Assembly: GCA_009760855.2 (NCBI GenBank)
Contig: WPIO01000003.1
Span: 14,674,001-14,738,000 of the forward strand
DNA from: Cristatella mucedo
Lineage: Eukaryota; Bryozoa; Phylactolaemata; Cristatellidae
Length of the DNA stretch: 64,000 bases
Reading direction: 5' to 3'
The notes below the pieces were generated by a model. It saw only the letters and a list, made by a program, of their open reading frames with translations, ran no database searches and was not told where the DNA came from. Shown here in pieces: positions 24,240 to 52,700 of this stretch; position 1 is the stretch's first letter; every line of letters begins with the position of its first letter. A program made the position numbers and the translations under genes.

Positions 24240-25582
24240 AGCTATTTCATACCTCAGTGACATCCTGGCTAGACTTCCATGAATCACTAGTTGTCATCAC
24301 TACTGTGATCACGACAATCGCTACTGTGATCACTACAATCACTACTGTGCGCCCTCGCGCAGACGGCCTATGGTTTACCACAGACATTAAACTAGCCAGG
24401 TCTAATAAGCGTAAGCTTTCAAAAGCCTACCAAAGATCAGGACTGACTGTCCATCGACAGGCATATGAAGGCTACTGTAGGTCGTACCAATCGATCATAG
24501 CAAAGGCCAAGTCTAGCTTCTGTGAAAACATTGTTGAATCTCAGATGCACAATCCAAAGATGCTGATGTCGACGATCAACCATCTCAACCGCTCCCAGAC
24601 TAGCTCCTTACCTGATGATCCTTGTGATGATCTAGCCGATCGCTTCTCTCGATTCGTTGTGCAGAAGATAGACAAGATCACGGAGTCCATCCCTGCGATG
24701 ACAACATCCTCCCTAGAATGCTGTTCCCCGATTCCTGGCTGCACCTCAATGTCTGCATTTAAGCAGGTCACTAGTGATCTCGTCCTGAAGTTCGTATCTC
24801 AATCAAAGAACACAACAAGTCCTCTGGACCCTATCCCCACTGTCCTGCTCCTACATGGCATTGATCTGCTGCTGCCATGCATAACTAACATCATTAATAT
24901 GTCATTAGCCTCAGGTCATGTCCCAGCACCTTTCAAAAAAGCTGTAGTCAGGCCACTTCTCAAGAAAGTGGCACTAGACCAAGAGAACTTGAGCAGCTAC
25001 CGCACAGTCTCCCTTCTACTATCCCTATCAAAGATATTGGAATGGGTCGTGGCGGACCAGCTGAACTCATACAATGAAACTTCAAACGTTACTAGTAAGT
25101 TCCAGTCTGGCTTTAGAGCTAATCACTCCACAGAGTCAGCATTCCTTAGGGTGTACAACGACCTATTTAGGAATGCAAACAAAGGTCAAGTGTTTCTGCT
25201 TGTTTTGCACGATCTTTAGGTAGCTTTTAATACTATCTATCACAAAGTTCTTTAAGAGCGCCTCTCATCTCGCCTTGGCATCACTGGCACTGCTCTGCAA
25301 TGGTTCAGGTCCTATCTCAGTGGGAGACTCCAGAGTATTGACGTGAATGGACAAAGATCGTCCGAGGTACCTGGGAAATATGGGGTACCACAGGGCTCCG
25401 TGCTGGGTCCAGTTCTTTTCACGGTGTATACTCTCCCTCTTGCTGATGTGATTGCCAAGCACAATCTAGGCTTTCACTTTTATGCGGATGACACTCAGTT
25501 GTACCTTTGCTTTGATCCCTCCCAGCCTTCGAGCACCTCGAATTCTCTCAACTCACTTGCTGCATGTATTGATGACATCCGC
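24240..25582 (+). mobile_element. Family A LINE, 5' portion (linker and reverse transcriptase), interrupted
   Basis: It begins with a short tandem repeat (ctactgtgatcac type, 24296-24350), then encodes GLWFTTDIKLARSNKR, the polymerase N-terminal region (KSSFCENIVESQ, LKKVALDQENLSSYR), SKFQSGFRANHSTESAFLRV, after stops GVPQGSVLGPVLF and FHFYADDTQLYLCFD. A TAG at 25217-25219 and a second stop break the frame before the catalytic box. The frame runs to IDDIR and is cut at 25582 by the family B insertion; it resumes at 29063. Confidence 0.9.
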
Positions 25583-25583
25583 A

Positions 25584-28500
25584 ATGTATCTCCGTCAGTA
25601 ACTCCACAAGGTCATAAAGACCATGTGGGTGTTTTGGACCAAGGTCATAAAAACCAGGAGAGTTTTTTATAGCGCACTCACAGCCTAAGCGGCTTTCGGT
25701 ACGCATTCGGTAGCCAACAGACTTCGTCTCACGCAACAAAGAGAAAGTGGGAAGCATAGCAGAGTTAGGAGAGCAGTTGAGGTAGTGAGTAGCATAGAAG
25801 TAGCAGTTCAGGACCGCTGAAAAAGATGTGCCATAGTTGGCAATTGGAGAGTAGATGTCGTTGCGTAAGAATTGTGGAAGCGAGTTCCACAGTCTAGGAC
25901 CTGCAGAGCTAAAGCTTCTGTCGCCAACTGTCTTTAAGCGGAGGAATGGGACAGCTAATTTATTGTCCACACAGGACCTGAGGGCGCGAACAGGCTGAAA
26001 CTGATGTAGCAGTTCAGCTAGATACGAAGGAGCCAAGCCGTGGCGGGCCTTGTGGGTCAGCGTAAGAACTTTGCTCTGTATCCTTTGCTCAACCGGCAAC
26101 CATCCTAGCTCTTTCAGCAAAGAAGACACGTGCTCAAACCACCGGGACTTGAAGACCAGCCTTGCAGCCATATTCATAGTCCGCTGTAGTGGCATAATAG
26201 CTTTCTTCGGTAGCCCAGCCAAAAGGGAATTACAATAATCAAGCCGAGACAGAACTAAAGAGCTAGTTAAATTTTTTACAAGCCACTGTGGGAGACAGCT
26301 TCTAATCTTGGATAGGGATCGGATGTGATGGCTAGCTGTAGAGGCAGTCTTCTGAATGAAGCTTTTGAAATTGAGGCAGCTGTCGAACACGACACCTAGA
26401 TTACGAGCATGTGGTGAAGGTCGCACAATAGCATCACCTATTAGAACAGCAAAGCCTTTTAATCTAGCCACACGCTTAGGGTGTCCTATGAGAAGCAGTT
26501 CGGTTTTATTGTCATTTAATTTCAGGAAGTTTTCCGACATCCAGAATCGAATATCGGCAAGGCGAGCATTCAGTTTCTCAGTTGCTGCAGCAGATTCCGA
26601 CGGTTTAAATGACAAATACAGCTGAGTATCGTCAGCATAGAAGTGATATCCTATTCCATGGGCCTTAATCACTTTTCCCATAGGTTGCGTATAAATAGAG
26701 AACAGCAAGGGACCAAGTACAGACCCTTGAGGGACTCCACAGGTGACCCTTCTCATGTCTGAGACCTGACCCCCACACGACACGGATTGAACACGATCAG
26801 ACAAGTATGATTTAAACCACGCCAGTGCTTCGTCTGCCAGACCGATCGTTGTTCTCAATCGTTCAAGCAGAACTTCGTGATCAATGGTGTCGAAGGCAGC
26901 AGGCAGATCTAGCAGAGCTAGGGCAGTGACATTCCCGTCGTCGTTGCCACGTAGAATGTCATTGTTAACACGAAGGAGAGCAGTTTTAGTAGAGTGCTGC
27001 CTCTTGAAACCTGATTGAAATGTTTCTGACATTCCATTATTTTCAATATGTTCAACTAGCTGCTTAGCAACCATTTTTTCAAGAATCTGATAAGAAGAAG
27101 GGAAAATGGATGATAGTTTGCTAGGACCTCTGTGTCTAATCCAGGCTTTTTAAGAATAGGTCTAACGATTGCCGATTTGAAGGACTTGGGGACGACCCCT
27201 TTTCCCAAAGAAGCATTAAAAATCTTGGTTATGGCAGGGCTAAGTTGGTCTGCAAGTGAAGACCACAGAGATGAAGGTATAGGGTCTTCAGGAGACGAGC
27301 TCTTTTTGCTAGACCTTATTAAGGCAGCCACATCACAGGCAGAAACATCAGAGAACCTTTTAAGAAAGGTCACAGGTTGAGGAACGGCGATTGCTTTGGT
27401 CGGAGGGGGCTTAATGGAGGCACGAATGTGCACAATTTTTTCAGTAAAGAAGACTGAAAACTTTTCGGCGGAGCCCTTAATATCTGGGGAGTCAGACCTG
27501 ACAGCATTGGCCAGTAAATGGTTTACTGTCTTATAAATCTGTTTAGTGTCCAACTGGCAGGAATTTAGTTTTCTAATGAAAAAAGAAGCCCTGGCTTTTT
27601 AAGCTTTCGGGTGTAAACTCGAAGGAAGTTTTTAAAATTGACTAGGTCTGCCTCAGACCCTGATTTCTTGAAACGACGTTCCAGCCTGCGCTTAACACGG
27701 CGCATCTTAAGGAGTTTTTTTGTAAATTGAAAGCAATCTCGACGACTTTGAACACGGATAGAGCGAACGGGAGCATGCTTGTCAAGAGCACTCCTGAGTG
27801 TCATGTTCATCGCATCAGTGAGGGTATCGAGGCTGCCGGTCGAGTCTGAATGCAGATCAAGAAGGCCTGCATCACAAACAGATTTCAAAAACTTGTCCAA
27901 GTCAACGCTTTGTAAGTTACGTCGTTTGGCAAATTCGACATTGCGCTGCACATACGAGGGAGCAGGAACAGTAAACGAGACCGAACAATGATCTGAGAGG
28001 GTTAGTGGGCACACCACAAAGTCAGTGGGGAGGACATCCTTAGTGATCACGAGATCTAGAATGTGGCCACCGACGTGGGTGCTATGATTAACGTGTTGGG
28101 CCAAACCAAGATTCTCCAGTCAAGAAATGAGCGGACCTGGCTGTTGCTAGGGTTGTCAACATGAATATTGAAGTCTCCTACAATCAGTAGCGGCCGGTCA
28201 CACTCAAATATTTTAGCGAGGAACTCTGAAAATTCCTCTATAAACAAGTTTAGACAGCCAGAAGGAGACCGGTATATCACAACGGTGAGAGGCATTGTCT
28301 TTGATGAAGACCTGATAGCAACCGATTCAAACGATGACCCGTGCGAGAAACTGCACATTTTATAGCTAAACGATTCGCGAACAACAATTGCAACCCCGCC
28401 ACCAACCTTGTCAGAACGCGTGGACTGATAGAATGAGAACCCGGGTGGGGTGGTCTCGGGAATACAGCTACTGGAACAGGGCGTCATCCAGGTTTCGGTA

Positions 28501-29062
28501 AGCAGAAATGCATCTAGCTTCTCCTGGACCACCTGATCGCGGATAAGTAACCCCTTGGTTTTTAGCGAGCGGACATTTAGTAGGCGGAATTTAAGAGGTT
28601 GTCGAACAACTGGGCGACGGCGATGAAGTGGCTCGTATTCTCTACCGTTTGCGTCCGGCCCGGCGGACGCTGGCTCTTCGAATTTGAATTGGACCTTGGT
28701 AACGGCCGTGGGACGACGTTTCACAACGTGCTGGGCTACAGCGGGTGGGCTACTACCGCAACAAGTACTATTTAGCGCTTTAAACTTACGAGTCGTAGGT
28801 TTGATAGCCGAGCTGTTGATGGGGCGAACGCAGGATGCAGGTAGGTTCTCACTGACCCGCCGGAGAAGGCCCGCCGGTAGGTATCGACTAATGGCGACAT
28901 CGCATCTTATGCTAAGCAGGTCCTGTTTTGTGTAGCATATCCGAGGACAGCTCATAAATAGTCACAGCGAAGATAGCAGCGGAATACCCGAAGGTATTAC
29001 GGAGAAATCAAGTAAAGGTCCACACCACGCTAGGGGTCGCCCGAGGCCGCTCTTTAGCGCGG
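25584..29062 (-). mobile_element. Near-complete L2/CR1-like LINE (family B) inserted in a family A LINE
   Basis: A 3.48-kb element with a ~107-nt 5' leader, one long ORF and a 3'UTR ending ggagatacatt, the same end as the copies at 14854 and 18506. TSD ATCCGC at 25577-25582 and 29063-29068 (7 bp if one A is counted). It lacks a poly(A) or (ATT)n tail, unlike family A. No separate ORF1 is seen; either this lineage has one ORF or the 5' end is truncated. Confidence 0.93.
25763..28955 (-). pseudogene. LINE family B ORF: APE-type endonuclease and reverse transcriptase, three frameshifts
   Basis: Starts at ATG 28955 with CYTKQDLLSIR, typical of L2-type N-termini. Endonuclease motifs: LLNVRSL, LLTETW, VGDFNIHVD, and, after a frameshift near 28.12 kb, LSDHCSV. 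A second shift lies in an A run near 27.60 kb and a third near 27.08 kb. Reverse transcriptase motifs: FQSGFKRQHSTKTALLRV, PAAFDTIDHEVLLERL, GVPQGSVLGPLLF, FYADDTQLYLSF (catalytic YADD intact), LKLNDNKTELLLIG, GWLPVEQRIQSKVLTLT, RLWNSLPQFLRND. Three indels and few other defects point to a recent but dead copy. The exact stop is not certain because the frame runs on into the 3'UTR. Confidence 0.92.
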
Positions 29063-30516: not shown

Positions 30517-30522
30517 TTTATT
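30517..30522 (-). terminator. Candidate poly(A) signal AATAAA for the long receptor isoform
   Basis: First clear minus-strand AATAAA I see downstream of the exon 13 stop, giving a 3'UTR of about 480 nt. The 3'UTR region (30523-31003) shows no repeat I recognise. Confidence 0.4.
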
Positions 30523-31003
30523 GATAAGTACTTTACACAGTTAAAAATAATTGCGTCTTACCACTGGCCCAGAGCTGTCACTTTGGCAGGCACAAAGCAT
30601 AGTGATGACCGCTAAGCTGTACATGAAAAACACAGCCGCACCACTTTTTCACGATAATAAAGAACGAACGAGTACAGAGAATAGCGGCATGAACATCCGA
30701 TATCGCCGAATTGCACACGGCATGCAGTTAAGTCATTTCGAGAAGTATACCAAGTGCTCCTGCTAGGAATAAATAATTAAGACAGCAGATCAATCTTATA
30801 GCGACGGCTATGCCCCATAGAGCTGGGGTGAGTAGCACCAACGCATTGTGCAGCAATATATCAGTGTGCTGTCCTATATGAAAAATGGAAAAGGAGCCCC
30901 GCGTTGACAGAACCCTTCTGAGTCCGGGTAAAACTTTCTCTGTCTTAGTATGGGCAGCAGATCTTAAGGAATTCCTCCGTCGATGCAATGCTTGCTGCTC
31001 CCA

Positions 31004-31143
31004 TCAAACGATGACTTCATATAACACCCTTTTAGCCTGCTTGCTGTCAGTAGCAGAAGTGGCATCACTCTCAGCTACACTGACCTGAGGATGGTATGGA
31101 GGTGGCTCAGACACTGACGAACTGTCATCCCTTTGGAATCCAT
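31004..31143 (-). CDS. Receptor exon 13: C-terminal exon with PPPY, ITIM-type motif and hydrophobic C-terminus
   Basis: Acceptor TTTGTAG, phase 1 entry, stop TGA at 31004-31006. It contains EPPPYHPQ (Tyr834; a PPxY-type WW ligand) and ends KRVLYEVIV: Val857-x-Tyr859-x-x-Ile862 is a strict ITIM pattern. The last three residues V-I-V fit a class II PDZ ligand. A CAG|GTCAGT donor-like site lies inside the exon just after HPQ; if it is used, the last ~26 residues would be replaced. Confidence 0.8.
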
Positions 31144-31612
31144 CTACAAATAAACATGCAATGATAAATTATAGCAGTATCACACATGCATGCACGCACA
31201 CACACCCACTGACAGACATACACTTTTACTTATTAGCTGAAATTAATTCCTCGAGAGCTACTGACGGCTCGGGAACAAAATAGAATTGCCATAAATAGCC
31301 AGGAATATTGTAACAAATAAAGATATGAGCTGATGAGGCAGCCACGATTGGATCTCACCACGTCAACAAATTGCCAGTAGGCCATAGAGCTTTCTTACCA
31401 AGTTCGTCAATGTCGTCAAAGTTGTAGCCGGGTATGCCTTTTGCAGCACTAGCGGTGATAGGGGCTGGTTGCCGCTTGACCCCGACTGAGGCATAAGTGT
31501 AATCGTGACGCTGCGGATTGTTGTTGGCTGCAGGATAGAAAACATGCTGACAGCCTCAATCAGAGGATAAGTCGGTCAGGTCAGCATAACCTGATGCAAA
31601 CTGGCTAACCAC

Positions 31613-31700
<88 letters not shown>

Positions 31701-34700
31701 AGGACATGAACCAGAGGCAATAGCAGGATACAAAAAATTCTGAATGAAAGTGATTGTAGCATGCGATAACCAATGAATTGGTGGCTACAAAACTGATACT
31801 AACACGGAGCACATCCCGACTAAAATAAAAATGATGCAACTTACGAAGGTCCTGATCGTGAATCTGAGTACCATCATGGGAAAGATCATCTTCACCTTCA
31901 CCAATAAAATTTGGATTAGCATACAACTGATCCCTTACATAGCTTGCATATGGCGGCTCGTTGGCATTTAACACTGCACCGCTGCAATGTAGTACAGAAG
32001 TATTACTACTCATGTCCATAACTCACGAAAGGCTGATAGTCGGCAGACATTGGTACATATAAATAACATTAATAATGATAATAATACATTTGCATAGCAC
32101 CCTGGGAACTTTATCTCTTTCATCTTTATAACTTTACATATGACAACAGTAAAATCGATATAGAAACTGAGGAAGCACAACTACCTCTTAGTATTGAACG
32201 AGCAGAGAATATGCCACACACATATACCACACACACAAAAGAGACTAAGGTCGGCCTACTCAACCATCTCATTTATACAGTGAGCAGAGAGCTTTAGTGG
32301 CTATCACTATGCCTGCTTATGGTACGACTCGAAACCAAGATCTGGGTCGTAAGGCAACCTACCGCTGGGAAAACTATGACCCATTGGCAAGATGAGCAAC
32401 TGAAAGTGAAACGAATGCTTGATAATTTAACGAGCACTCAAGGAGGCAGGCCATCGGGTTTCGCCCAACAGTAACTTATTCCCTCACCAACCCGCATGTG
32501 GCAAGCTCTTACAGCAGATGATTCTGTACATACTTTTGTCCATTGCATGTGGGGTGACGAACGATAAGGCTATGTTACACAAATGAGGTTGTCAAATCAG
32601 CTGGAATATACTTTCACTTTTAAATAGAAAGCTTGGATTGTTGATATAATGCTGAAGTCGACGGCTAGAAAATATAAAATCTACATAAAAAGAAGAGAGA
32701 TACAGGGTAGTCAGTAACTCAGCAACTCTAAGGGTGGACGTACCAACGCTCTCTGAGATACTTGGAAAGGAAGCAGTGAGCAAACACGGAGAGACAAGGG
32801 AGTGGAACAAGAAGAAAAAGAGAGCCTTAAAAGATAGGTAGGAAATGTCAATGTGTCGTTACTTTTTGAGGCACACAAGACTGTTTTGCAAGAGCTTTTG
32901 GCCTTTGGCTGGAAAACAACTAAGCATACGTGAGTAGGGAAACAACCAGCCACTGTCATACCAGCGAAATTGCAATTCAAGTTCAAACACGAAATACTCC
33001 GAGTCTTGTTTGCAGGGAAAGACTGCATCTACAGGAAGAGCCGGTTGGTTATTACGCAGATCTGCAGACGTAGCTCTGGGCATGCTGAGATTTGTCGACA
33101 TTTATCAAAATACAAAACTGTTTTCTATTTTTTAATTAATTATTCATAACTCACTAATTACGTCCTGCATGCATTGAGACCTTTAACTAGGGTTGAGAGA
33201 GCAAGATACTCATCCAAATTCACATTTCGAATGTGAGTTCCACGTTCCGTTATTCTTGCGTTTCTATAAAGCGCATACTGAGCCACACAAAAACGGCAAA
33301 GAAAGCGATGATTATCGGTGATCCATGCTCATGCATAGACCACCACAATGCTACAACACGCACGGGATGTGAAACAAGTTGTGGCACCTTACCTTTGTGA
33401 AAAATCGTGTGTGCTGTACATCAATGAGCCCGGTGGACCCTTCTTACGACCTCGACGTCTGACATAGCAAGCAGCTGTGATCACAATTACGATGAGCAAC
33501 ACTGACCCAACAACGACACATGCTATGATGATGACATTGTCTTGGGTCAGTTTCGTCTGGCTGTTTTGTGTACCTGAAAAAATTCACCGGCCGTCGAATT
33601 TTCACCGGCCGTCGAACACGAATAGCGCCGAGCCCTGGACACAGCCTTCACAAAGATGTAACACATGGCACAACCACACTGCAGCAGGTTCAAATGTAGA
33701 TATGGGCAATAGTGCTCTGAGTGAATAAGACTTGGATGCTTAGATCACCGTTCCGTCACCATTGCTGCTCAGACGGACTAGATTCCACAGCTAACAAGAC
33801 AACTCTTTTAAGACCAGAATGAATGCATCAGCTCAGCAAGAGAAATCCTGGTGTGGTGCTGAAATGTTTCAGAGCCAGCTGCAGAGCTTTTTATAGCCAC
33901 ATACTGGACATGTGCTTCTTGATTTCTTGTGGTGGGCGAGGAAGCAGGGGCAAGCGTACTTCCTGTGTTCAAGCATATATCTAACTTTTTATATCAGAGT
34001 AGTCAGTGTGGTTACACAGCAACCAACACTGTAGAAGCAGCATCGTTATGCTAGAGCGGTCAGCAGCCGAGCCAAGCAGCAATAACACAGACTTTAACAT
34101 TGGGATCAGTGTTCCTTGCAACTTGCAAGTAAGCTTCTAGAGAGACTATGCTGAAAAAAACACAGGAAATAAATGCTCAAGAAATTAAAAACAACATAGC
34201 CCAATGGATCCAGCTTGGCGTTTCCAGAAAACAATGATCTAAGACAGGCAACAGGGTAGCACCTAACTTCCACGACAGAACCTGTAAGTCCCCCGTAGGA
34301 CTTATGTCACGTATATTAATAATAATAATAATGCACTTGATAAAGTGTGCTCTTGAACAATCCAACAGACAGTACATATGCTCTGAAGCAACACTACTAG
34401 CTCACCCTCCCCAACTGATTGAATGCAGGGTTGCAACCACCGTTGCAGTGGTTCCAACTGAATAGTCAATTTGAAAATACCGAGCAACTGAAGTTTGTCT
34501 ACAGTGGGACTGCGACCTGTAAGGTTCAGCAATATGCATGTACGTGCAGAGATTTCATGATCTTGCACAAATATAAAGTGCCTAGAAAGAGATTAAAGTC
34601 TCTAAGGGCACTATATAAAATGCATTATTAGTATTACTATTATTAATCCCTACTTGGCTTCTAAGCTACAAAATTCTATCCTCAGAATTAAATAATTGGA

Positions 34701-37700
34701 CTTTACTTGAGGTCTTCGAACGACCTGGCCTCTCGACTGAGGACCAAACAGCTTAAAATATTTATGCAGAGCTTCTGGATTTCATCCAGCTGTTGATGAT
34801 ATATTAAAATCATTTCTCAACGTTTTCAGACCGTCACCACTTGATTTCTAAAACCCATCCTTAGTGGTCTTAACCTAAAAGATTAATATTCGTTCTCCTA
34901 GATTGAGACCTACAGAAATACTGCAGATGACGATTCATGGATTAAATGCAAAATAGCAGCTGGTAATTGCACATTTACTTCAACAATGTTGATTACCTTA
35001 ATCCAGTTGACCGTTTTTTTAGAGTTGAAATTGTATGACCAATTGATGCAAGTACTCCATTAAATATTTAGTGTAAAATTTGATGATTTTGATGATGCCG
35101 GAAAATAGGTTCCTTGCTGTCTTATCCAAAGTTCGGTACAAGGAGTATGAGATCACCAGTTTCCAAAGTTGGAGATAACGTTTTCACTCAGTGATAACCT
35201 GAATGATTGCACTAAAACAACCTATGACACTAATAGAGTGTTTAAATGAGAAAAGGAGTTTGCTAGCAACTGATGAACAGGCCGAATAGTGTGCCAATTG
35301 CTATGTAAAAAATGGGCTTCAACTCGAAGCCATTGTTTAGAGTAATTAGATTCTTCACTACCAAGCTTCATAAGGAAGTAGAAATGGATTTAAAAATGAA
35401 TTTACAATTTCTCTATAAGAAATTAAAATTGCTCAAACTAATCCTAATGCAGCATATTCATCTGGTCGGAAAGAAATTCAAATCCACTTGCACCTCACTT
35501 TTTCACTTTAGACACACAGGGTCGGAAAATGAAATAGTTTGTGATGGCCCGACGTAGCAACTGAATCAAGTTGCCTTGCAATAAATCTAGCTATAACAAT
35601 TTGGCAATAATTATGAGACCTTAAATTATTGCAAGTGCGAGTCCACTTCATCAGCTCGTCAGATATTCTGATGCCTATACAAACACGTATCAGAACTTGC
35701 TTAAACTATCCCAGAGCAAGGCATCAGAGTCGCTCACTAGTTTACAAGGTAATGGTGATCAAGGCGCATGCTCGTGGTTCGTTGAGACTCCATTAGCAAG
35801 GTTGGAGTTACTGCAACGCAGGGGAAAGAGGGCCAAAACCCAGAACCAAGGCAAATAAAAAGCACAAGGACGGCCTTCGAGAGGAGCCACACAAACTAGA
35901 GGCTGGGTTGCATTAAATCTGGTACTTACCACATTCTGGCCACGTCTATAAGTGTATTCAAGCCTATGGCAATTGATGGTAGCCATTTCTTACGCAACCC
36001 CTATGCATCTTAAGCAGGCCATTTGATCAGAGAGTACACCATCTTCAGCAATCAGGAAAAGCATTGTGGAAACAGTACAAAGAATCTTAAGCAGCTGCAG
36101 TGAGGTGAGACTATTCTAGCTAATTAGCGTAATTTATTAAATATGATATATCCTACTCAAAGGCCAGAACAAATCACTTCAGAACTTAAAGTTGCGTAAC
36201 TAAGGACAATCGAGTTAAATCAAATGTGATTGTAATCGTCAAAATCCTTTCAGAAATGAGAATAACATTCGTGCATAGCAACAACTGATAGTTTGGCTGG
36301 CAAAGTTCTTCAAATGCCACTTGCTAGCATTGCTTTCCTGCCTGGACCAAGGCTTCATGGCTGCATGACGATGCATAAGGTCGACAGCAACTTTTATTTG
36401 CTGAATGGTAATTTCCTACCATATTGCAACTCTTTGGGCTAATCTGTCCACACCTCTCATTGGGCGGCTGCAGCTTGATCTCTGTTCTGTCTCTGCCACT
36501 GGCGACAGTACGAGGCTGTCGTAGCAATAGCAACTAGCAGACATACAGCACCTACAGATGACGTGGCAACCAAGATAGTTTTGAATTTGCTCAGTGTGTC
36601 TGGTGACGATGTTGTTGTCTGAGTAGTTTCGAAACTATCTGGAATGAAAATATCTGAAGTGGAAGGTGTGCCTCTGGTGATGCAGATATTTGAAACTTAA
36701 TCTCATACACAGCCAACTCTTGCAAGTTTTATGAGATTTCTATCTAGGAAGATAGGAAAATCGAAAACAGTGCTAACCAAAATTCGCCAAGAACGAGATA
36801 CATCTATGCGAATAAAAATGTACTGGAAGTACCTGAACAGGATCTTGATTTTCTAGCTGAATATCCCACGGAAGTTTCCTAAAACTCACTGCAGCCTTGT
36901 AAGGCCCTGCTGACTACATTCACCTTGATCAAGGTCAAGGTGAATGTAGTTAATGACCGAGGTCGTGGGCTCAAGCCGCTAGGCATACATGAACCGCCTG
37001 AATACAGATTATGCATGCTTAGGAGCTATGCAAATGAATTATATTTGTATAAGCATTCTCTAACACAGTAAGGCAGGGTATGGTGCAGCATTTATAGCCA
37101 AACAACCTGATAAATAGCACTGCAATAGAAACTTTGAAAACGCAACCGATCAGAGGAAACAGAAAATTCAGAGCTTAACGAACTTCTGCCCGGCAATGAT
37201 TTACCAAAACGTGAGATTCACATCAGTTAGTTATGTTGTTAACTGACCGTGCATATTTCTACCGTGGTTATCTTAACAAGCACAAAAATATACTATATGA
37301 GCCTGTTTTGGCAGAATTTAAGGCCTTTCTGGCTTGTGACGTAGTCACCATATCGAAGGCTATTATTTCGTAGCACCGTAAGATTATTGCAAGATTAACT
37401 AAGATTGATTAGGTAAGATTAACTAGATAAACCAAATATCCTCTGTCTTAGAATGTAACTAATGTGACATACTTTACCTCAGCAATCATCAATGACTTGC
37501 AGCATGCTATTTTGAATGTGCTCAACCATATGCCTGAGGGCCTGACAGGGCTTTAAATGGTGAAGGAATCGATGACAAAGTGGGGAAAACCAACAAACCA
37601 TATTATCGGATAACTAAAGAAATCTTTTATATTATGACTAACAGATATAACTATCCGTTTTCCTAACACACATACATATATATGCATTAAATGTAACTAC

Positions 37701-40700
37701 CTTCTCGTAACGACGGTGGAAATATTTGTATACACACTGATTATAATGGTTACGACAGCTCAAGTGCCAGTGTATTCAAACGTACTAAAAAAAACTTCAT
37801 TTTTTCGCACCTAGTGAGCTAACTAAGTAGGCGGCACACTTGCCACATTTATAGCTTCGTCATGTTAATACTACCGAGTGGCAGTGCTGTTTGACCTTTG
37901 TTTTTAAAATCACTGCAACACTTCAGATTTGTGTTGATTTCCGGGGTGTGTAAAGTTTTTGCACCAGAAGACATTTATCAAATCACGAACAAATATAAAC
38001 CATGCTGCACAACTTGCTTTCCAGCAATTCTTAAACTAAGGAAAATCAACTCATTCAAAATGCAGAACCAGGCCTTGAAATTGCCATTTTAAAAACTAAA
38101 AAGATATACAACCCTAGTTGTTTCAAATGTAAATAATGCACCACTTTGGACTTAACTGTCGACAGGTAGCTATTGCATCCAACATATGACCCTCAATTAA
38201 CTGTGATTTTACCTTTCGCATTCTATATAAGTCCCTGAAAATTCTAACAATCTTCCCGCTTACTACTTGCATCAGTGATTCGACCAGGAGTACACTGCCC
38301 TTATGGGTCAGCTAATAATCTGCCATCAAACCAATACCATCTAAATACACGTGTGACTGAAGAATAGTCCATCTCAACTAAATACTCATGGCTGCATGCT
38401 AACGGTAACGACTAAAATAGTTGATTGTGGATCACTACTAGGTATATATAATAGCGAGTGCATTGGCGTTTTGAGAAGGCATTGATCGACGGACATCAGT
38501 AGATGGACTTGCCTGTAGTTCTTGTAAGGTCAGCATAAGCTCCACACACTATATCTTGAAAGTTGACCAGGCACCATCGGGCACGAGCTGCAGGACACTG
38601 AATGCTCTGAGCCACGTTAGCACTTGTCAGGGTGCAATTATTGGCTGACATACTGCTCTGAGAATCGGCATAGGAGCAATTGACCTCGACACAGTATTCA
38701 GCATCAGCATGAAAAGGAAGACTCCAAGGAGTGCTAAAACTCAAGCTTCCAGCTGGCGGTCCATCCAGCAGAGTGACCACCACCACCTCCGAGGAATTAC
38801 TTTTTCCAACGTAGTTCTTTGCCTCGACATACACAAAATAGCTGCCAGATGAAAGCCCTACAAAAATTAGGAAATTATTAACTAATGTATAAACAGATGT
38901 TCTCGAACCATCTGTAATTTACCTAGAAGCTTCCTCTGTAGAGGTTCGATACTCAGGAACTCGGTGCTACAAACCACCATTCAAATGTAACGAACCTGTC
39001 TGTTCTCGACTGCCAGCTATGGCATTAATTGGTCAGCAAGCTTCACTGCCACATCCTTAGTGCCTGCTTAATCAACCGTGTCCTTATTTTCCAACGAGCT
39101 TCAAAATCTCACTTTTTAAAGCAAATTATGCATACAACATGTGGCAATGCTTTGACAGTGCTTGCTAAAACCTTTCCTTTGGACCACCCAATAAGTTATC
39201 AAGGCTTTGTTGAGCTACAGGTCAAGATGCAAAAGTAAACTCACACGCAAATATGGCTTACAGCGAATGCAGACAGAAAATATTACAGTATTGAATGCAG
39301 CAGGCACAGGCACAGCTGCTAGTCACAGCGGCACCCAACTAATTCCCAAACATTCATATATGGAAAAATTGCATATACACATAAAACTGATCTATAAATG
39401 ACATACCCGTGACTGTGCATGACGTGCTGCTTCCATTATATACAAGTGTTAAATTGACATGCACCTGGAATTCCTGTTCATAGCCACCATTGTACGATGC
39501 AGCCCACGAAAGTACCATCGTGGACCATCGAGCGGCGACTTCACTCACATTTGAAGGCGGCAGAGGTGGAGCTGCATTAAAAAATGTATAAATGTCTCGA
39601 GGCATCATACACTGTGATACATTCACATTGCGAGAACATTTCGGCCTTAGCAATATCCTAGAAAAGAATGTAATGAGATCCCTTCCCTATCAGCAATCAA
39701 TGAGCCTATGGCCCAACTCTACTGAATGCAAGCCAGTCAGGCTAAACTTTGGCTATGAATGTCTTTGACAAGGGCACAACTAAAACCCATACACAACATA
39801 ATTGTGCCTCCCCAATTATAAGTAGTTCAAACTAGATCTTAAATTAGAGCTTAAAAATGTCTGCACATGCTATGTATAAGCAGTCATGGGTAGTATAAGG
39901 AAACGACAGCACGGCCTAAATATCGGCAGCCTCAACATCTATCGTCAATCCAACTAGCACTGCTAGACGTGCATTTCCTTAACAGCAGATTTTCAAGGGT
40001 AAGATGTTTCTACAAGAAATTCCAACAGAAGCTTTGAGACTAGTGCATGTGGTTCAAGGGCAGCAAATCGATGTACTTGCACTCTCGCTTGACAATATAC
40101 GAGCCAGATATTTTAGAGCACCAAACAGCATGAAAATGCTGGCTGTGACAGTGACTGCAGGACGATATTTACTGGTAAGACTTAAAGAACCAAGAGCCAA
40201 GCTGTCAAGTACCTACTACTTCAGATTGAATGCATAGCAAGAATATTAGGGCCTTAGCAAAGTTGCATAAATTGGCTGCTGAAATGCAGCAGTAATCTAT
40301 CCCCAACATTACCATACGTTATAATGATAACATTAAGAAGAAATACTTGGCCAGTGAGCAGGGAAATCAGCTGGCTTTAGCTGGCACTGGACAAATGAGC
40401 TAGCTGAAAGATCAGACATTACCAACGTGGGTGTGTGGTTCTTTAAGGGGGGTGTCAAGAAAATACCTACAAAATTTGTCTGACAATCAAATATGTGTTT
40501 ATAGTACCTTTCGAAAGACAAAAATGTTAGAACTAGGATCTAAAGTTCTGACGACTTCTACGTAAAAGAAAAATTGGTTATGCCAACCACGCCTAACCCG
40601 GATGTAAACCGGAAGCAACAAATCTACAAATAAAAAATGTACCGATCTCTGCATCATATGCGACTTGTATCCCAGCTTGTCGAACCTTGGTAGATCGCTA

Positions 40701-43700
40701 TAGACGCTTGAAGCTTGTTGAGGTGCATACTTGTGACTTTTATACATCTTTATTTCCAAGGTTGGTTGGTGCCTTGTAAATTAAATAACTCAACTGATAT
40801 TTCACATATCGGAATGAAATTTGAAATGCGAGTTTAGCTCTCCTTTTCCTACAGTAGTTTTTAATATTTTTTATTTCGATTTGATACATTTGGCTGTAAA
40901 TTTAGGCACCAACCAACCCAGGAAATGAAGCCGTGTAAAAGTCACAAGTGTGCACCCAACAAGCTTCAAGCATCTATAGCGATCTACCAAGGTTCGACAA
41001 GTTGGGAGACAAGTCGCATACGATGCAGAGATCGGTAAATCTTTTATTTGCAGATTTGTTGCTACCGGTTTACATCAGGGTTAGACGTGGTTTGAATAAC
41101 AAATTTTGCCTTTCATGTATAAGTTGTCAGAACTTCCGATCCCAGTTCAAACATATTTGTCTTTCGAAAGGTACCATAAACACATACTCGTTTGTCCGAA
41201 AAATGTTATAGGTATTTTCTTGACTTCCCCCTTAAGATAAGAAGTGAAAGACAGCAGCTCATTGCCTAATAAGCTCTCACTAAATCGGAAATAAAATGCT
41301 GTCCACTGTTTGGCAATGCTAACCACCAGCGGGATGGTAAGCACACAGTAAGTGGCACTGTCGGGAGAATAATGTCTAGGGCACCCTCTAATTTAACTGC
41401 ATTAACCCTTCCCAGTCACTTCTAAATGCTTCATATACAATAAGGCCACGAATGATTCACACATTCCAACATAAACTAGATGGTAATGAGTGCTGATAAA
41501 TCACTCTCTAATTAAAAATGCCACACAGGCAGTTGACTCTTTGAAATCATAGAAAGGTGAAAGGGCATCAAGGGGTGGCCAAACTGCCCCACCCAAGCCA
41601 TCAGGTCGATCCAGGGGAAGCCAGCACTTGCTAGCCCTCCTTTCCACTAGCCATGTCTGGACACTGTGTTCTAATGGACTTAGCGTTCTAATATGGGGTC
41701 GGCAAAGATGTGAGTCGATGCCGTAAGCCAAAAAATCGGTTTATTGACGGGTCCAGAAATCAAAGAATCTGCAGTGTAACCATGCTTTAAACAGCAGTAC
41801 ACCGGTAGTTAATTCTGGTGGGCCAGCATGAAGTCAATGTCAACAAAAAAAAGTGGAACACTATTAATAAGGCAGATTAGAAACTACGATGTCTTGTGGA
41901 GAGAATCAACAACTAAGCCTGCTGAAACCATACCTGCTACTCTGTTGATACAATCGACCGCTCTCGATAGTTTGGTTTGGCAAACATCTCCTGGGATAAT
42001 AACAATAATTCTAATAATAATAAAAAGACATTTGTATACTACCCGAAGACAACTAACTGCACTGTTAGAGTACTTGTACAGCCATAAGCCAGCTTCTGGC
42101 TCCAGCCAACATATCAGAACTACTCCTCCACCATGCTAGGCATCGTATCACCTGCTTTTTCTGAAACATATCCCTTAGCTATACGTCAAATCAACCTCAA
42201 ATTCTTTGGAAACCGTACCTTTTGTTCGTATGCTCCTAGAGCCTGGCATTCACTCCAGACTAACGACATCCCAGACTTGACATTTAAAAAGAAGCTAAAG
42301 ACACATTTTATCACAGCATTTAGTAGGTCATTGTGATTCGACCTTTGTGAGCTTATGCATACTGACACTGTGAACTGCCACTAAACAAATTTACACGTTG
42401 ACCCTCTAAATTTCACCTCTAACCATGTTATGCTTGCTGATACTGCGCATATTACCACTAACCATTTGATCATTCTTCCTTTACAGCGTATGCAAAGTGC
42501 ATAGAATGAGACTATGTTCTCTGACGGTGCTATACAATTTTTTACTAATATTCTTATTAGGTACAATGCTATGAAGAGAGGGCTCCAACAGCAACGTCAA
42601 ACTTCACATATACAAAGCTCAATGGCACTAAAGATGGCCTTCTTGCCCATGGGGACGGCTAAGCCTTGTCACCAGTGTCCCTCGGTTGACAGATTGAATT
42701 GCCGCTCGTTCACAAATACCAGATAGTTTTGCAAAGCATAGTGGTATCGACTACTACCACTTATGCTATCAACGTTGTGATGCATATTCGGAAGAGAAGC
42801 TTCTCTATCGTAGTCACGCCAACCATGCCACACCTATCATGAGATTATTACAAATGAGTTCAAATGATCTTGTATTGAGATTGGGATTGTCTTAGATCGG
42901 GTGAGATTAGTTGGAATAGGCTAATAAAAGAGCATACTTGTAATTAAAAGAGGCCGACAGGCTTTATCGTATGTAACACGTACGAAGCAGCAGCAGCGAT
43001 GCAAAATCCTAAGCGGCAGATACCCTATGCTGCTGCAACTCACACGGCGCAATAACGTCGATGGATGACGAGTCGTTGCCATATTGGCTATTGGCAAAGC
43101 ATATATACGTCCCATAGCCATCCTGGCGTAGGCTGGCAATAAGTAAGAAGCTTTTCACAGTGAATATCGAGCTGCTGATAGTTGTGACATTCCAACTAGA
43201 ATATGTGGACATGTTTTTTGTCCATGTAATAGTCGGCAGAGGGTTTCCATAGGCTGAACAAGCCAAAGTAATAGGCTTTCCAAAGTAACCCACAGTAGTG
43301 GCTGGACCACGAGCAATCACTGGTTTTGCTGCAAAAAATGTGTGTAGACAGAAATGAGATTATCAAACTGGCATATGACGACTGATTCTAGTAAGAATAA
43401 AACATGTGGTAAACGCTCTGGCCTGGACCATGCCTACTTGGTGGACATGCTCAAGCATCGTGCTTACACTGCATAGGTGAAGCAACGACTACGAAGGGCA
43501 CATGCTCAACGAACGCTACTCATATCACAGCAAAACGAGCGAACTACTGAGCGTACAGCATGCTTGGGAAGCGCAGCACATGTGAATGCCCTGAGTTTAT
43601 CACTAAGTACTTGTCAACACCGATGGCAAGGCACGAGGTCAAGGCTTGCCAGAAACAACAGCTTGTCTACACATGCAACCATGCACATCCTGAACACTAG

Positions 43701-46700: not shown

Positions 46701-49700
46701 CTGTAATGCCCACTGCAAGTGGTGGTGATAGCCTTTGAGGCTATTTTGATGCTATATCAATGAGACTGCTAATTCATCTAACATTTCTTACTTTCTAGCT
46801 ACTGACGACCATCTTGCTGCTTGTTGCACTCGGGCGCGAGACTGCGTTACATGTCCGTGAATAAAAAAGGCTACATAATGAACCAATTACCGTGTTTGTT
46901 GGAATCTCAGAACTTGCTTTCTCATAAGAATCACATTGAGGCTAGAAAGTAGCCGATACCCTGACTCACTAATTCGACAGCAAGAACAACTGCAATGACT
47001 ATAAATTGCAGGGTTCAAATGAGGAATTCATAATGCCAACTATCCAACTGGTCTGCCATACCAAGCAGAATCAGACACTGAAAAACCACTAACAGCATGA
47101 ACATTGAGTGTAGGATAACAGCTATGTCCTACTGCAATGCCACACACAAAGGAAAGCAAATGACATGCCATTGAAATTCTACTTATCTTACCAAAAACGG
47201 ATATGTTACACATTTCTGATGCTGCAGGACCTGCAGTGTTGTAAACTGTGCAGACGTATGCCCCACTAGAGGTCAGGTTAACAAATGGCATTATCAGTAC
47301 ACCTGTTGACAAACCGGTACGAATTGTCAGGCCATTCTGAGTCCAATTATATAGAGCAGCAGGATTTCCTAAAAGAGAAAAGATGGTCGATACCATCAGA
47401 CATCATGTATACATCAACAAAAAGGAGATGATTTTCGAGCAGCTAAAGATATACGTTTTAGAAAAAATTTAAATGTTTTCGTGTTTAAAGCAAACTTTGC
47501 TTCTTCTGTGACAATCTCTCCAACTCCTCACCCCCAAAAATATTGACCCGAGTGATTAAAAACAGGCTCGTCAGCAAGCTGGAATTAATCCTGAATGTTG
47601 CCGATGCCGACGGTTTCTTCTTCCTAAGCCTTCCCTTCCTGCTCTTTGTGCTTCGGCTGTTTCCTGTGGGCATTTTCAAATTCGACAGAATCATCGGTAG
47701 CCAAAAGGTCGGTTCACGCAAATGTGAGCTTCTTGGAAAGAACTTGCTTAAGCTGAGTACAGTTAAACGCGATGGCGACTTACCTCTCACATTTTCCTTG
47801 CCCAAGACGCATGAGCTGCTTTGATCTCATCGGTCCTGAATTTATTTATTTAAATAAATAAAACATTAACAATGCTCTGGAAAACTGGACGTATTGTAAA
47901 CCATTTTTGAAAACGTCTATTTTAAAATAAATTAAAAATCTATGCAGTACTTAAGCAACTGGGATAAATGAGGGCGCCATTGCTTCAGGGCGCAGGCCAA
48001 ACAACACCAATATCTCCAATGCCTCGCTTACAACGGCACTGTTCGCGGTTCATAATAGTGTGCACTGGTTCAACCACAACTCTTTACACTAATGAAAACA
48101 CAGGTTGTACAGCTCCCTGAGAGCACGCAATCTCTTTCTTGGCATTCAATATAGGCTGACAATTATGCGCATAGACTGATTACCGATAAGATAACTGTAC
48201 AATTGCAGCATGCATAACCATTCCAATGACAATTTAAAATGACAAAGCAAATGCCGCAAGGCACAGGTGAGCTTTTAACTTCAATTTAAATGTCTGCAAA
48301 TCAAGGGTGTGGTGAGGTACTGCAACCACAGCAACTCAGGCTTCAACAATCGCAACAAAAGAAATTAAAGTATGCCACGATTTGAGTGTATCCACAAGGC
48401 ATCGTCCTATACAGCAAGTGCATTCTCATGCAATGGACTACTAAGGCACGGTATTGGTCTAGGTCTTGGCAGTTCATTTTCATAAGAACACCTGGGCGCA
48501 ACAGTGCGAAACAATGTGGATACCTATGAAATATCAAGTACTACTACATGCAATCAAAATTGAAGATTTTTGCAGTCGATTTCGCATGTATGTGCACTGT
48601 ATAGCAGTGATTCGTTGAGCCTGAAAGCTATGGCTGATATGAGTCAAGTGATATTAGCGATACTGGTGATAGTAGTCAGCAGCTCTATGACTTAGTTGTG
48701 TAGAAATGTAGGGTCTACACAAAATATCGGCTGGGTCCTCTGTACCGACAAATGATCATAATAAGAGAAACCAGGTGTGAAAAGCAACAAAAATGTAAGG
48801 CCTAAACAAGATTTAGGCTTGGTCTGAAGCATAGGTAAATAATCATAATGAGAGGATCCAGTGGCAAAAAGCAACAGACGAAAGAATTTCAGCATGTTAT
48901 TCTATGCGAGTTGTCATGTTATGTTATGTTATGGTATGAGAGAAAATTTGGAAAAGAGCTGAAAAATTAGTAACATGACACTATCTGAAGCTTGATGGGG
49001 AACCAGCACAGGTCAGAGAGAAGTGGTCATGAGCCTATTACAACGTTACAGACAAACATACTTTGCTGTCGTTTTTTTGAAGCTAATGTGCTTAATTGCA
49101 GGGACAGAGAGACCTGAGTCATAGTAGAGGGGAGGTAGTTCACAAACATCACGACCTTGGTCAAGGGATCGAGTACTTTGGCAGGCTATTCATTATTGCC
49201 TGCCGCGAGCCAATGACAGCTGCTAAGGCTCTTCTCCTGCTAAAACAAGAGAAGCTGTTCAGTCAGCTTTACTTTTTAAGTGAAGGTATCTGAAACTAAA
49301 GTAGATGCGATACATGAATGGTCGAATTCAGCTGCAGCCCCATTATTTAAGCAAGCCCAAATGATTTCTACCAACAAATACTGTCACTAACCAAACATCA
49401 CTCAAATGAGAAGGCTGGGCTGATGGTCTACCACAAACTGCCAAATAAAGTAAGAGCATATGGATCACAAAGAGCTATTCGCAATGCCATAGTGCATTGC
49501 ATGGGCTGCAGACGACATAGGTACGAGAATAAAGGGCATATTTATTACCTGGGTCGCTGACGTTGCATATCAGACTAATATTATCTCCAGACGAAATGTT
49601 AACCGAGCTTGGGTATACGATCGGCTTACTTGGTATATCTATAAAAATAAACAGAATAAAAGAGTAGTCGATTGTTACTGCCTACTCGGCAACAGCTCAC

Positions 49701-52700
49701 AGTAGCAAGATCGCAAACAGCGAATTAAATATTTAAGTGATTATGGAAAAGCTACTCAAAGATGATCTGAAATAAGAAAACACAAAATGGCTTACATTTA
49801 ACATCCAAAGTGATGTTGCTAGAAATGTTCAAGTTAAGCAGTTGGTTGACAAAGTTCGAAGTGGTGCAGATATATATGCCAGCTGCTTGCCTCTGTATGT
49901 GACTCACATACAAGTACGATACTCCTCCTATAGTGTTGTTCAACTGGATGGTGCTCCCACCTACATTTTGCAAAAACTACAGGTAAAAATCAGCCATCAG
50001 CTTAATCAATAGTAACAATACCAGTGAAATTTGTATAGCATCCAAAGAGAAATTAATCTCGTTCTAGGCACTTGAAATATGCTGCAAAGGAATCCTGGCA
50101 ATTGGTTAGTGATAACATGTGCAGTGTCAGCATTCGTAAGTATGCAAAAGACAATCCATACGGACCAAGCAAATGTAATGAGAAATAAGTATGCTTGTAT
50201 TTCTTTTAAAATGCCAAGTACGAGAATTTCGTGATCAATGTGGATGCCAGACTATGGATACGAGCAAGGAAGAACATAGCTGCTTACTTGTGTTAGGCGC
50301 TGTCCATGATATGGAGGGCAGCGGCTTTCCCTGAGCCGAGCACGTCAGCATAATATCACTACCTTCCACAATTGAAGCTGCAGATGATCTTAGTAAAACA
50401 TTCCTAGAACCATCTGCAAAAGTTTACATACATCAGCAGCTCTCCTAATATGTAACAGAAACTATATAACAGCTTAACAAACAATGCAAAATAGTTTAGT
50501 AAAATGTAAGAAACGTTACCCACAGCGACCTCGTGTAAAGCAGGAGTAAAAACATAGCAAATTGTTATCTTTGACTGAATCTAAACTCTAGATTTGAAGT
50601 ACCAGCCTGTCGTGTCTTCGAAAATGAAGATTAGAATAGCTATTGCCACGAAAATCAAATATAAATGAGGGAATGACAGATGCTGGGAACGGCTATTGCC
50701 GAGCTGGCAGCATCAACAAAACTGTGGTCCTTTCACGATACTATACATGCATGGGTTACTCATCATTAGCAACTCCAGCAAACACATCTACTTACAACTG
50801 ACATTCAGAAAAGCAGTAGAACTGTTACTGCCAAGAATATTGTTGGCAACACATGTGAGTGACGCTCCATCATCCAAGTAACTGGGGACGAAGCTGATGA
50901 TGCCAATAACATCTCCACTGCTGTTGGACGTCGCAGATACGTTGGATTGCTGTAGAACACCACCTTTGTACCACGTGATATTCGGAGCAGGGTAACCACC
51001 AAGAGACTGACATGTTACCATGGATATGCGACCTTCGATCATATCCAGGGCCGACTGTGATATTGAAGGCAATCCTGGCAAATCTAAAATAGCAGATCCA
51101 AACTTTGAAAGTTGAGAAAAAGACGATAACATGACGATCTGGCATTCCAAGATTGAGACATTGAGATGGGCGTAAAAAAAGATCAAAACTCATAACTAAG
51201 GCTACTGCTGCAGTAGGGCTCGAGTCTACCAAAGGAACATACCGGTTGTCAACACTTTTTCCGACAAGAAAAGAATGCTTTTATTGGTCTCGTGGGTTAA
51301 ACCTGGACCCCAGGGGCCGAAAGCCAGTATCTCAAGCCTGTCCCAATCAAACAGATAAAAGAAAATAAATAAGAATGAAAGACTGGGAGAAGAGTCGGCC
51401 AGGAAGTTGATAGATACTTCAAAATCAAAAATGATGGGAAGTAAGCTTATGTTGTACATCCATCCACACTGTGGTGGGCTATGCTTTTTTGTATGTGACG
51501 ACATTTATCAAGCCAAGCTGGCTTACTGATCTTTCAATATTTGACCGGTAGCAACAGCACACAAATGTGTATTCAGTCAGCATCATTGTCGATGGTTACT
51601 TGATCAATCAAATTCATTTGTTACAAATCAAACATGACGTTCTATTAAGAAACCTTGCTGATTTCAGTGTCGATTAGTGAAGTGGAAGCATAGCAAACCA
51701 GTTTTCCTATCATTTAAAAAAAGAATAGCTCCATACAGGTTGTGGCAGTGCGAGGGTCTGTTTCTGGATTCATAGATGGGTGCAAAAGCTTGGTAGTCTT
51801 TTTACGAAACTTGCAACTACATTAAGAAGTCAATATAATAGTACCATAAAAATACAGTACGGCTTTGCAACTTTTAATTCTGCCTGTTTATTAAAACAAT
51901 ATGCAATAGAATAAAGAGCTTTGAAAATACCTTTATAGTTTCGTGGTGGCTGTCATTATAGAACAAAAGTGAAGCATGCATAGCTGAGGATTTGCCAAAC
52001 CCAAAAGACTGTCTACACGAATGTCTGACATAATAGTTTCTATACAAGTGCAGATAAGAAATAACTGACACGACTTGTATTGTCTAAATCCAGAATTACT
52101 CAAATCACGCAGCTGACACGTCGGTTATATAATCAAGGTGTAGCAGTTAGACTTAACATAATGTACTGTTTTAGTTAGTAACCGAGAAACAGTTTTTCAA
52201 AATAAAAAAGGGTACTCATCTTATTGGTGATGTAAACACGAGATAAATGCCGGCCCTTTGATAAATTAAACTCCACGAAAAGTAGCCTTAATTATAGCGA
52301 TCAGAATCTAGGTCATAGATAAGGAGGCGGCTGCAGCAACTTGACCTTTGAGACACGCCAACCGTCTGGAATGTGCAACACTACTATTACTATCGGTCTT
52401 GAGCAGAGGTCGGCAAACTCTGGCCTGTGGGCCAGATCCGGCCTAGCTAGTGCTTCAGTCCGGCCTAGCGGCCCCCTAGTTATTTATTGATGGATCCGGC
52501 CTATTTGAGTTGTGCCGGTTTTCTTCCCCTTCACAATAGAGGTACTTTGAGTGACGAGTATTACAACGAACGAGTTCAGGAGGCACGAGCCGTCTCGGCT
52601 GCTTTTTGCTTTGAGTTGAGAGCCAACTGCAATTGTGCATGACTTTTTTCTTCGCGTGTTCCGCAGTATGATTTTCGAACTACGACTTTGCTTTGCGCAT

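Follow-up and report, generated by a model that had tools for sequence, protein, structure and literature searches.

An immunoglobulin-superfamily receptor gene in a bryozoan gene array, with two predicted membrane ends behind a single GC donor

Results

Two predicted membrane ends for one ectodomain

We analysed a 64,000-nucleotide stretch of the genome of the bryozoan Cristatella mucedo (hereafter the window; G000:C332:14674001-14738000 of a 572-Mb assembly) and found a receptor gene in which a single ectodomain is probably dealt to two membrane-anchored proteins, one tailed and one nearly tail-less, by the choice of the last exon. The gene lies on the minus strand, from 55681 to 31004, and its 14 coding exons join in frame. 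By its predicted domains the product is an immunoglobulin-superfamily (IgSF) surface receptor with five immunoglobulin (Ig) domains, one FN3 domain and a cysteine-rich membrane-proximal module (Pfam Ig_3, 160.4 bits over five stretches against a cut-off of 30; fn3, 25.4 bits against a cut-off of 25). In the mechanism that we propose, exon 9 would act as a hub through its GC donor. Joined to exon 10a, it would yield an anchored form of 728 residues with almost no inner tail, and joined to exon 10b and exons 11-13 it would yield a form of 863 residues with a tyrosine-rich tail. Both joins would be made in the animal, with the unusual GC donor rendering the choice adjustable. The short form would then bind the same ligand without signalling through a tail, and the ratio of the two forms could set the response or separate adhesion from signalling.

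Features of the gene, in coding order:
55318..55681, minus strand: exon 1; start codon, signal-peptide-like start (judged by eye), Ig domain 1; 7 genome copies matched
50796..51083, minus strand: exon 2; Ig domain 2
50288..50413, minus strand: exon 3; Ig domain 3, part one
49796..49960, minus strand: exon 4; Ig domain 3, part two
49549..49638, minus strand: exon 5; Ig domain 4, part one
47192..47368, minus strand: exon 6; Ig domain 4, part two
43044..43328, minus strand: exon 7; Ig domain 5
39407..39571, minus strand: exon 8; FN3 domain, part one
38513..38857, minus strand: exon 9; end of FN3 and cysteine-rich membrane-proximal module, phase 1 end, GC donor CAG/GCAAGT
36457..36638, minus strand: exon 10a; stalk rich in threonine and serine (T/S-rich), transmembrane helix, short tail, TGA; 10 genome copies matched
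36393..36398, minus strand: AATAAA, 59 nt past the 10a stop; same place in 4 of 8 intact copies
33393..33573, minus strand: exon 10b; stalk, transmembrane helix, basic juxtamembrane stretch, phase 2 end; 8 genome copies matched
31845..31981, minus strand: exon 11; tail, 3 tyrosines
31399..31527, minus strand: exon 12; tail, 3 tyrosines
31004..31143, minus strand: exon 13; tail, 2 tyrosines, PPPY, terminal LYEVIV then TGA; next AATAAA at 30522; 3 genome copies matched

AG acceptors and GT donors are present throughout the gene, including at exons 11, 12 and 13, and exon 9 has the sole non-GT donor. Exon 9 (38857-38513) closes in phase 1 and exons 10a and 10b both open in the continuing phase, which places one donor opposite two acceptors of compatible phase, each on an exon with a predicted transmembrane helix. 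The initial annotation had described this shared junction, two products of whole codons, a stalk and hydrophobic helix in each end, a TGA after a short tail in 10a and a route from 10b through three tail exons, and each of these points was borne out. Exons 1-9 plus 10a come to 2187 nt (728 residues and a stop), exons 1-9 plus 10b and 11-13 come to 2592 nt (863 residues and a stop), 10a closes within 36638-36457, and each end holds one hydrophobic segment, with a best 21-residue mean hydropathy of 2.12 in 10a and 3.25 in 10b. Its broader claim of one ectodomain with two membrane ends is well supported by the fit of the DNA and by the recurrence of the same exon order in other copies (below). 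The GC donor of exon 9, the AATAAA at 36398 and the gene array had no place in that annotation. Helices were assessed by hydropathy only and the signal peptide by eye; a structure prediction of the cysteine-rich module had a mean predicted local distance difference test score of 47.5 and was not used.

A receptor array on two contigs

Across the 323 kb of contig C332 that we examined, which includes one 2500-N run beside copy C, there are eight copies or fragments of the gene on alternating strands (A+, B-, C+, D-, E+, F-, G+ and W-, where W is the window's gene), forming an array of four convergent pairs (G000:C332:14446091-14729681). Three more copies of exon 9 lie on contig C174 (178 kb; G000:C174:46741-169499), which is possibly another haplotype with different gene content. 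Genome-wide matches, whose counts are lower bounds for large families, numbered at least seven for exon 1, nine for exon 9 (that of B being partial), ten for 10a, eight for 10b and three for exon 13, and all of them were located on these two contigs.

Exon 10a follows exon 9 in eight of the nine exon-9 copies, B being the exception, and the order exon 9, 10a, 10b on one strand is found in six (W, G, A, E and two on C174); in C and F, 10a is present and no exon 9 was found. Copies A, E and G have intact ectodomains of 668 residues in which eight acceptors, eight GT donors and the GC at exon 9 are all kept. On C174, exons 1, 9, 10a, 10b and 13 of the first gene follow one another in sequence, and its 10a and 10b are both open; judged from those five exons, it looks like a second two-ended gene. 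Elsewhere there is damage: exon 9 of D is interrupted by a stop, 10b of B is frameshifted, and parts are missing from B, C, D and F, and therefore several intact 10a exons sit in broken genes.

Sequence is also shared unevenly between copies. Over 6.7 kb, introns included, W matches G, its inverted neighbour, at 99.1% identity (window 52200-46200 versus G000:C332:14651400-14658070). Across exons 2-6 the figure is 99.3-100% in 400-base steps; identity is 88-98% towards exon 1 and 80% in the adjoining block at the opposite end. This tract over Ig domains 2-4 suggests a recent gene-conversion-like event. A paired-receptor cluster would combine near-identical ectodomains with opposite tails in linked genes; between G and W, identity is 96-100% in exons 1-9 and 78% in 10b, and no tail was found for G. 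Downstream of 10b, much of the sequence is common to the A and G units, for the most part at 80-92% identity.

The exon 9 donor and read-through

The exon 9 donor, CAG/GCAAGT, is a GC donor with a strong flanking consensus, and it opens introns of the GC-AG class. GC is present at this donor in all nine exon-9 copies found, with the bases beside it changed in A, B, D and one C174 copy. Because the paralogues share the donor by descent, these are not nine independent facts. Human and mouse genes that contain a GC-AG intron have a larger number of isoforms and of alternative last exons (PMC7242645, PMC2490688); several last exons are found in 80% of protein-coding genes with such an intron versus 64.1% in human, and in 59.3% versus 43.7% in mouse (PMC7242645).

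Reading on past the donor (38512-38496) gives GKSIY and then a stop, and with that stop only five codons away intron retention would yield a soluble receptor. The main regulated choice might then be between membrane-bound and soluble protein, either because the GC donor goes unused and translation continues past exon 9, or because the two stalks alter shedding. The read-through closes at the same codon in nine of nine exon-9 copies (by eye, on printed sequences), the 10a stalk is T/S-rich, and the shedding of CADM1 is decided by alternative splicing together with O-glycans (PMC5385562). However, no AATAAA or ATTAAA occurs on the coding strand between 39.0 kb and 10a, and the shared stop is inherited rather than independent, and we regard this account as quite improbable.

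Exon 10a as a probable alternative last exon

Since 10a carries its own stop and an AATAAA 59 nt downstream (background, 0.058 per 100 nt), it is best read as an alternative last exon, and by sequence it looks like one; the first AATAAA after exon 13 is at 30522. Because of that stop in 10a, translation of an mRNA that included 10a as well as 10b would also end in 10a. For both helices to occur in one protein, a weak donor within 10a would have to be used; the best such donor in the coding part scores 3.4, compared with 4.0-9.3 for the gene's own GT donors.

We compared 10a with what chance might supply. On both strands of the window, 632 acceptor-like AGs (336 + 296) score at least as high as that of 10a, and in three cases the frame that follows encodes such a helix, namely at 10a, at 10b and at 30873, beyond exon 13. 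In 6 Mb of simulated intron, a helix of the hydropathy of 10a was expected 0.08 times per 4.94-kb intron, and one that also had an uncharged core and a basic flank 0.0025 times (three matches), with thresholds that were taken from 10a itself and therefore favour it. At the site beyond exon 13 (30873-30728), a further acceptor of compatible phase leads into an open hydrophobic frame; it is probably a product of chance.

A relationship between 10a and 10b is suggestive only. Their 43-residue ungapped alignment scores 63, which none of 5000 segment shuffles reached, and none of 46 control IgSF helices matched 10a as well as 10b does. Against this, one mussel and one barnacle control helix match 10b slightly better (64) and two further mussel helices score 62, while 167 of 1035 control helix pairs, many of them homologous, reach 63. 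A profile comparison gave a score reached by 0 of 46 controls against 10a and by 6 of 46 against 10b, and at the DNA level 23 of 500 shuffles reached the observed score. The two exons may be duplicates of one exon. Directly ahead of the 10b acceptor, at 33619-33583, W and F have a short direct repeat with GACGGCCGGTGAA, which is less perfect in other copies.

A different division of the locus would make exons 1-10a a short receptor gene and assign 10b-13 to another gene; the fuhc locus of Botryllus was read first as one spliced gene and later as two (PMC3691228). The AATAAA that 10a has of its own fits such a division, as does copy D, which has exons 8, 9 and 10a and no 10b that we could find. 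Yet the phase of 10b calls for a preceding exon that ends in phase 1, as exon 9 does, and in copy B a stretch of 1.55 kb separates exon 9 from the frameshifted 10b, with no 10a found between them. Moreover, nine minus-strand open frames between exon 9 and 10b gave no Ig or FN3 match in a test that covered the longer frames only and returned two sub-threshold matches to other families. We find two separate genes very hard to credit.

Conservation of exon 10a across copies

The acceptor AG of 10a is kept in 10 of 10 copies, and eight of the ten keep the frame through the helix and stop no more than 19 residues past it, so the short end of the initial annotation recurs across copies. W, D, F and one C174 copy end CRQWQRQNRDQAAAAQ, C174 gene 1 ends one residue later, and G, C and C174 gene 2 stop directly after CRQW.

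Ratios of nonsynonymous to synonymous differences (pN/pS) were computed for the six pairs among the four copies that keep exon 9 and 10b, A and E being excluded for their broken 10a. The three pairs that include W gave 0.21 (W-G, p = 0.005), 0.31 (W-C174 gene 1, p = 0.02) and 0.49 (W-C174 gene 2, p = 0.055); pairs share branches, and p values are uncorrected for the number of pairs. Reading 10a in the wrong frames gave 1.01-1.79 for W-G and W-C174 gene 1, with one value undefined for want of a synonymous difference. A test for synonymous excess in pairs including C and F was significant for W-G (p = 0.005), W-F (p = 0.041) and W-C (p = 0.044). Between W and G, 10a is 90.7% identical compared with ~82% for the flanking intron (Fisher p = 0.0012; p = 0.005 with shorter flanks), and it is also better conserved than its flanks in F-G (p = 0.017); the W-A and G-A values are unusable because the downstream flanks do not align. 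Across W-G, F-G, W-C, G-C and W-F, 10a contains no gaps, compared with 14 to 66 gap columns in the flanks.

Other results weigh against a working 10a end, and some of them would be expected if 10a were a relic, that is, an old transmembrane exon inherited through duplication of the array and no longer spliced in, with 10b left to provide the one working membrane end. pN/pS in the three pairs without W is 0.85-1.14, synonymous excess is absent in F-G (p = 0.18) and G-C (p = 0.37), and 10a is no better conserved than its flanks in W-C, G-C and W-F. Across eight copies, variable columns are spread 14/11/16 over the codon positions of 10a without third-position excess (p = 0.63), in a test that among five control exons was significant at 0.05 for exons 2 and 7 and not for exons 1, 6 and 9. 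Copy A has lost one base of 10a and meets a stop ahead of the helix, and in copy E 10a is broken within the helix and runs into sequence absent from other copies. In addition, the AATAAA is missing from its position in four of the eight intact copies, the 10a helix has the lower hydropathy of the two, and the 10a acceptor (score 2.99) is the second weakest of 13, with only exon 4 lower. At the other end of the gene, the ITIM (immunoreceptor tyrosine-based inhibitory motif), YxxPhi, YxN and YxxQ motifs of the tail show no excess over shuffled tails. The relic account is favoured by the pN/pS values near 1, the lack of third-position excess, the breaks in A and E, the flanks conserved as well as the exon in W-C, G-C and W-F, and the intact 10a exons that sit in broken genes; nonetheless, the frame, early stop and acceptor are kept in most or all copies, two of the three W pairs have p < 0.05, and 10a exceeds its flanks in W-G and F-G. 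We consider a relic unlikely. Selection on 10a appears uneven, and its conservation provides moderate support for the preferred reading, in which 10a is a working exon.

The inner tail and the downstream exons

The predicted inner tail of the long form has ~160 residues and is tyrosine-rich. All eight tyrosines of exons 11-13 are kept in copy B, and the six of exons 11-12 in F. The several tyrosine motifs reported for this tail by the initial annotation are present but lie mostly at chance level: PPxY alone comes near to an excess over shuffled tails (P = 0.06), and the one ITIM-like sequence, VLYEVI, is kept in copy B and has a shuffle P of 0.31. The intron between exons 11 and 12 contains a long GA run at 31618-31697.

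Exon 13 was found in W, in one C174 copy and in the broken copy B (at least three copies), and a 10b in any other copy is therefore no sure sign of a signalling form. A frameshift in 10b of E and of C174 gene 2 brings the frame to a stop 16 residues beyond the CY at the end of the helix, and E's frameshift is shared by one C174 copy. Exons 11-13 were not found in the plus-strand copies. Possible last exons of these copies are at G000:C332:14669901 and 14673389; both are open, with a stop common to A and G (and, for 14669901, to E), and an AATAAA follows 14673389 in both A and G. They are unproven candidates, and nearly all of their amino-acid differences look unconstrained.

Relatives of the receptor and other features

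No orthologue was found in searches of 5.8 billion proteins, one of which can find only relatives that have short exact words in common with the query; among the 7991 candidates scored there, those with the most words in common, matches were to IgSF proteins in general, with 25% identity at best. No near-identical protein was present among these 7991, nor among 5877 scored, the part from FN3 through the transmembrane helix to the tail had two protein matches without a credible link, and a scan of viral contigs with the ectodomain confirmed no locus. Two known families were rejected on domain content. Members of the Dscam family have about 10 Ig and 6 FN3 domains, compared with five and one here, and Dscam-named matches are 24-25% identical; Nectin/PVR proteins have three Ig domains and no FN3, which the domain set here does not fit. 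We recognised no paper as describing this gene in a literature search with limited coverage of subscription journals.

Elsewhere in the window, 25551-28961 contains pieces of a non-LTR (long terminal repeat) retrotransposon with reverse transcriptase. A search with this reverse transcriptase gave 14 best matches of up to 93% identity, the 93% match being a protein fragment from a metagenome contig (best 120 of 7505), and a scan of genome contigs confirmed no locus.

Discussion

Short-tailed receptor forms are an established device. TrkB.T1, for instance, has a short tail and competes with the full-length receptor; the TrkB forms share one transmembrane exon, whereas each form here would have its own. 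In the Nectin/PVR family, the alpha, beta and delta forms combine one ectodomain with different transmembrane and tail sequences, and they resemble the window's gene in this respect but differ from it in their three Ig domains and lack of FN3. Dscam1 is much richer in Ig and FN3 domains, and both of its transmembrane exons continue into a cytoplasmic tail, whereas 10a ends the protein. In other respects Dscam1 is similar, being an IgSF receptor with one ectodomain and two alternative transmembrane-segment exons, 17.1 and 17.2, the choice of which in Drosophila directs it to dendrites or axons (PMC2566808). The arthropod N-cadherin exons 18a and 18b are likewise alternative, although the gene is a cadherin: they are mutually exclusive, each encodes part of the transmembrane domain, and they are conserved among the arthropods examined, and no localisation difference between the two forms was seen in Drosophila in that study (PMC2655722). 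Among horse CEACAM1-related IgSF genes, copies diversify through stop codons in, or alternative splicing of, transmembrane and tail exons; unlike the gene described here, this mammalian family has tails with named ITIMs and immunoreceptor tyrosine-based activation motifs (PMC5856374). Alternative transmembrane exons are already known from Dscam1 and N-cadherin. The present gene stands apart in bringing together a conserved GC donor and a probable alternative last exon that has its own helix, within an array whose copies lose one end or the other separately.

The initial annotation had proposed that the two forms compete for ligand. Such competition is unproven and is one use among others, alongside adhesion by the short form, different targeting as in Dscam1 and stalk-dependent shedding, none of which we favour. 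A wider and rather doubtful reading treats the array as a locus of recognition, with ectodomains kept alike by gene conversion; the conserved GC-donor hub would deal out tailed, tail-less and soluble forms, and copies would specialise by losing one end. W and C174 gene 1 would then retain both ends, A would be without the 10a helix, and E and C174 gene 2 would have a 10b that closes 16 residues past its helix.

If both joins are made, the genes of a receptor array, in an animal for which our searches found no close protein relative, could use one unusual splice donor to control whether signalling follows from an ectodomain. This would constitute a testable switch between adhesion and signalling or between signalling and decoy, for which the paralogues without one end provide natural mutants for comparison.

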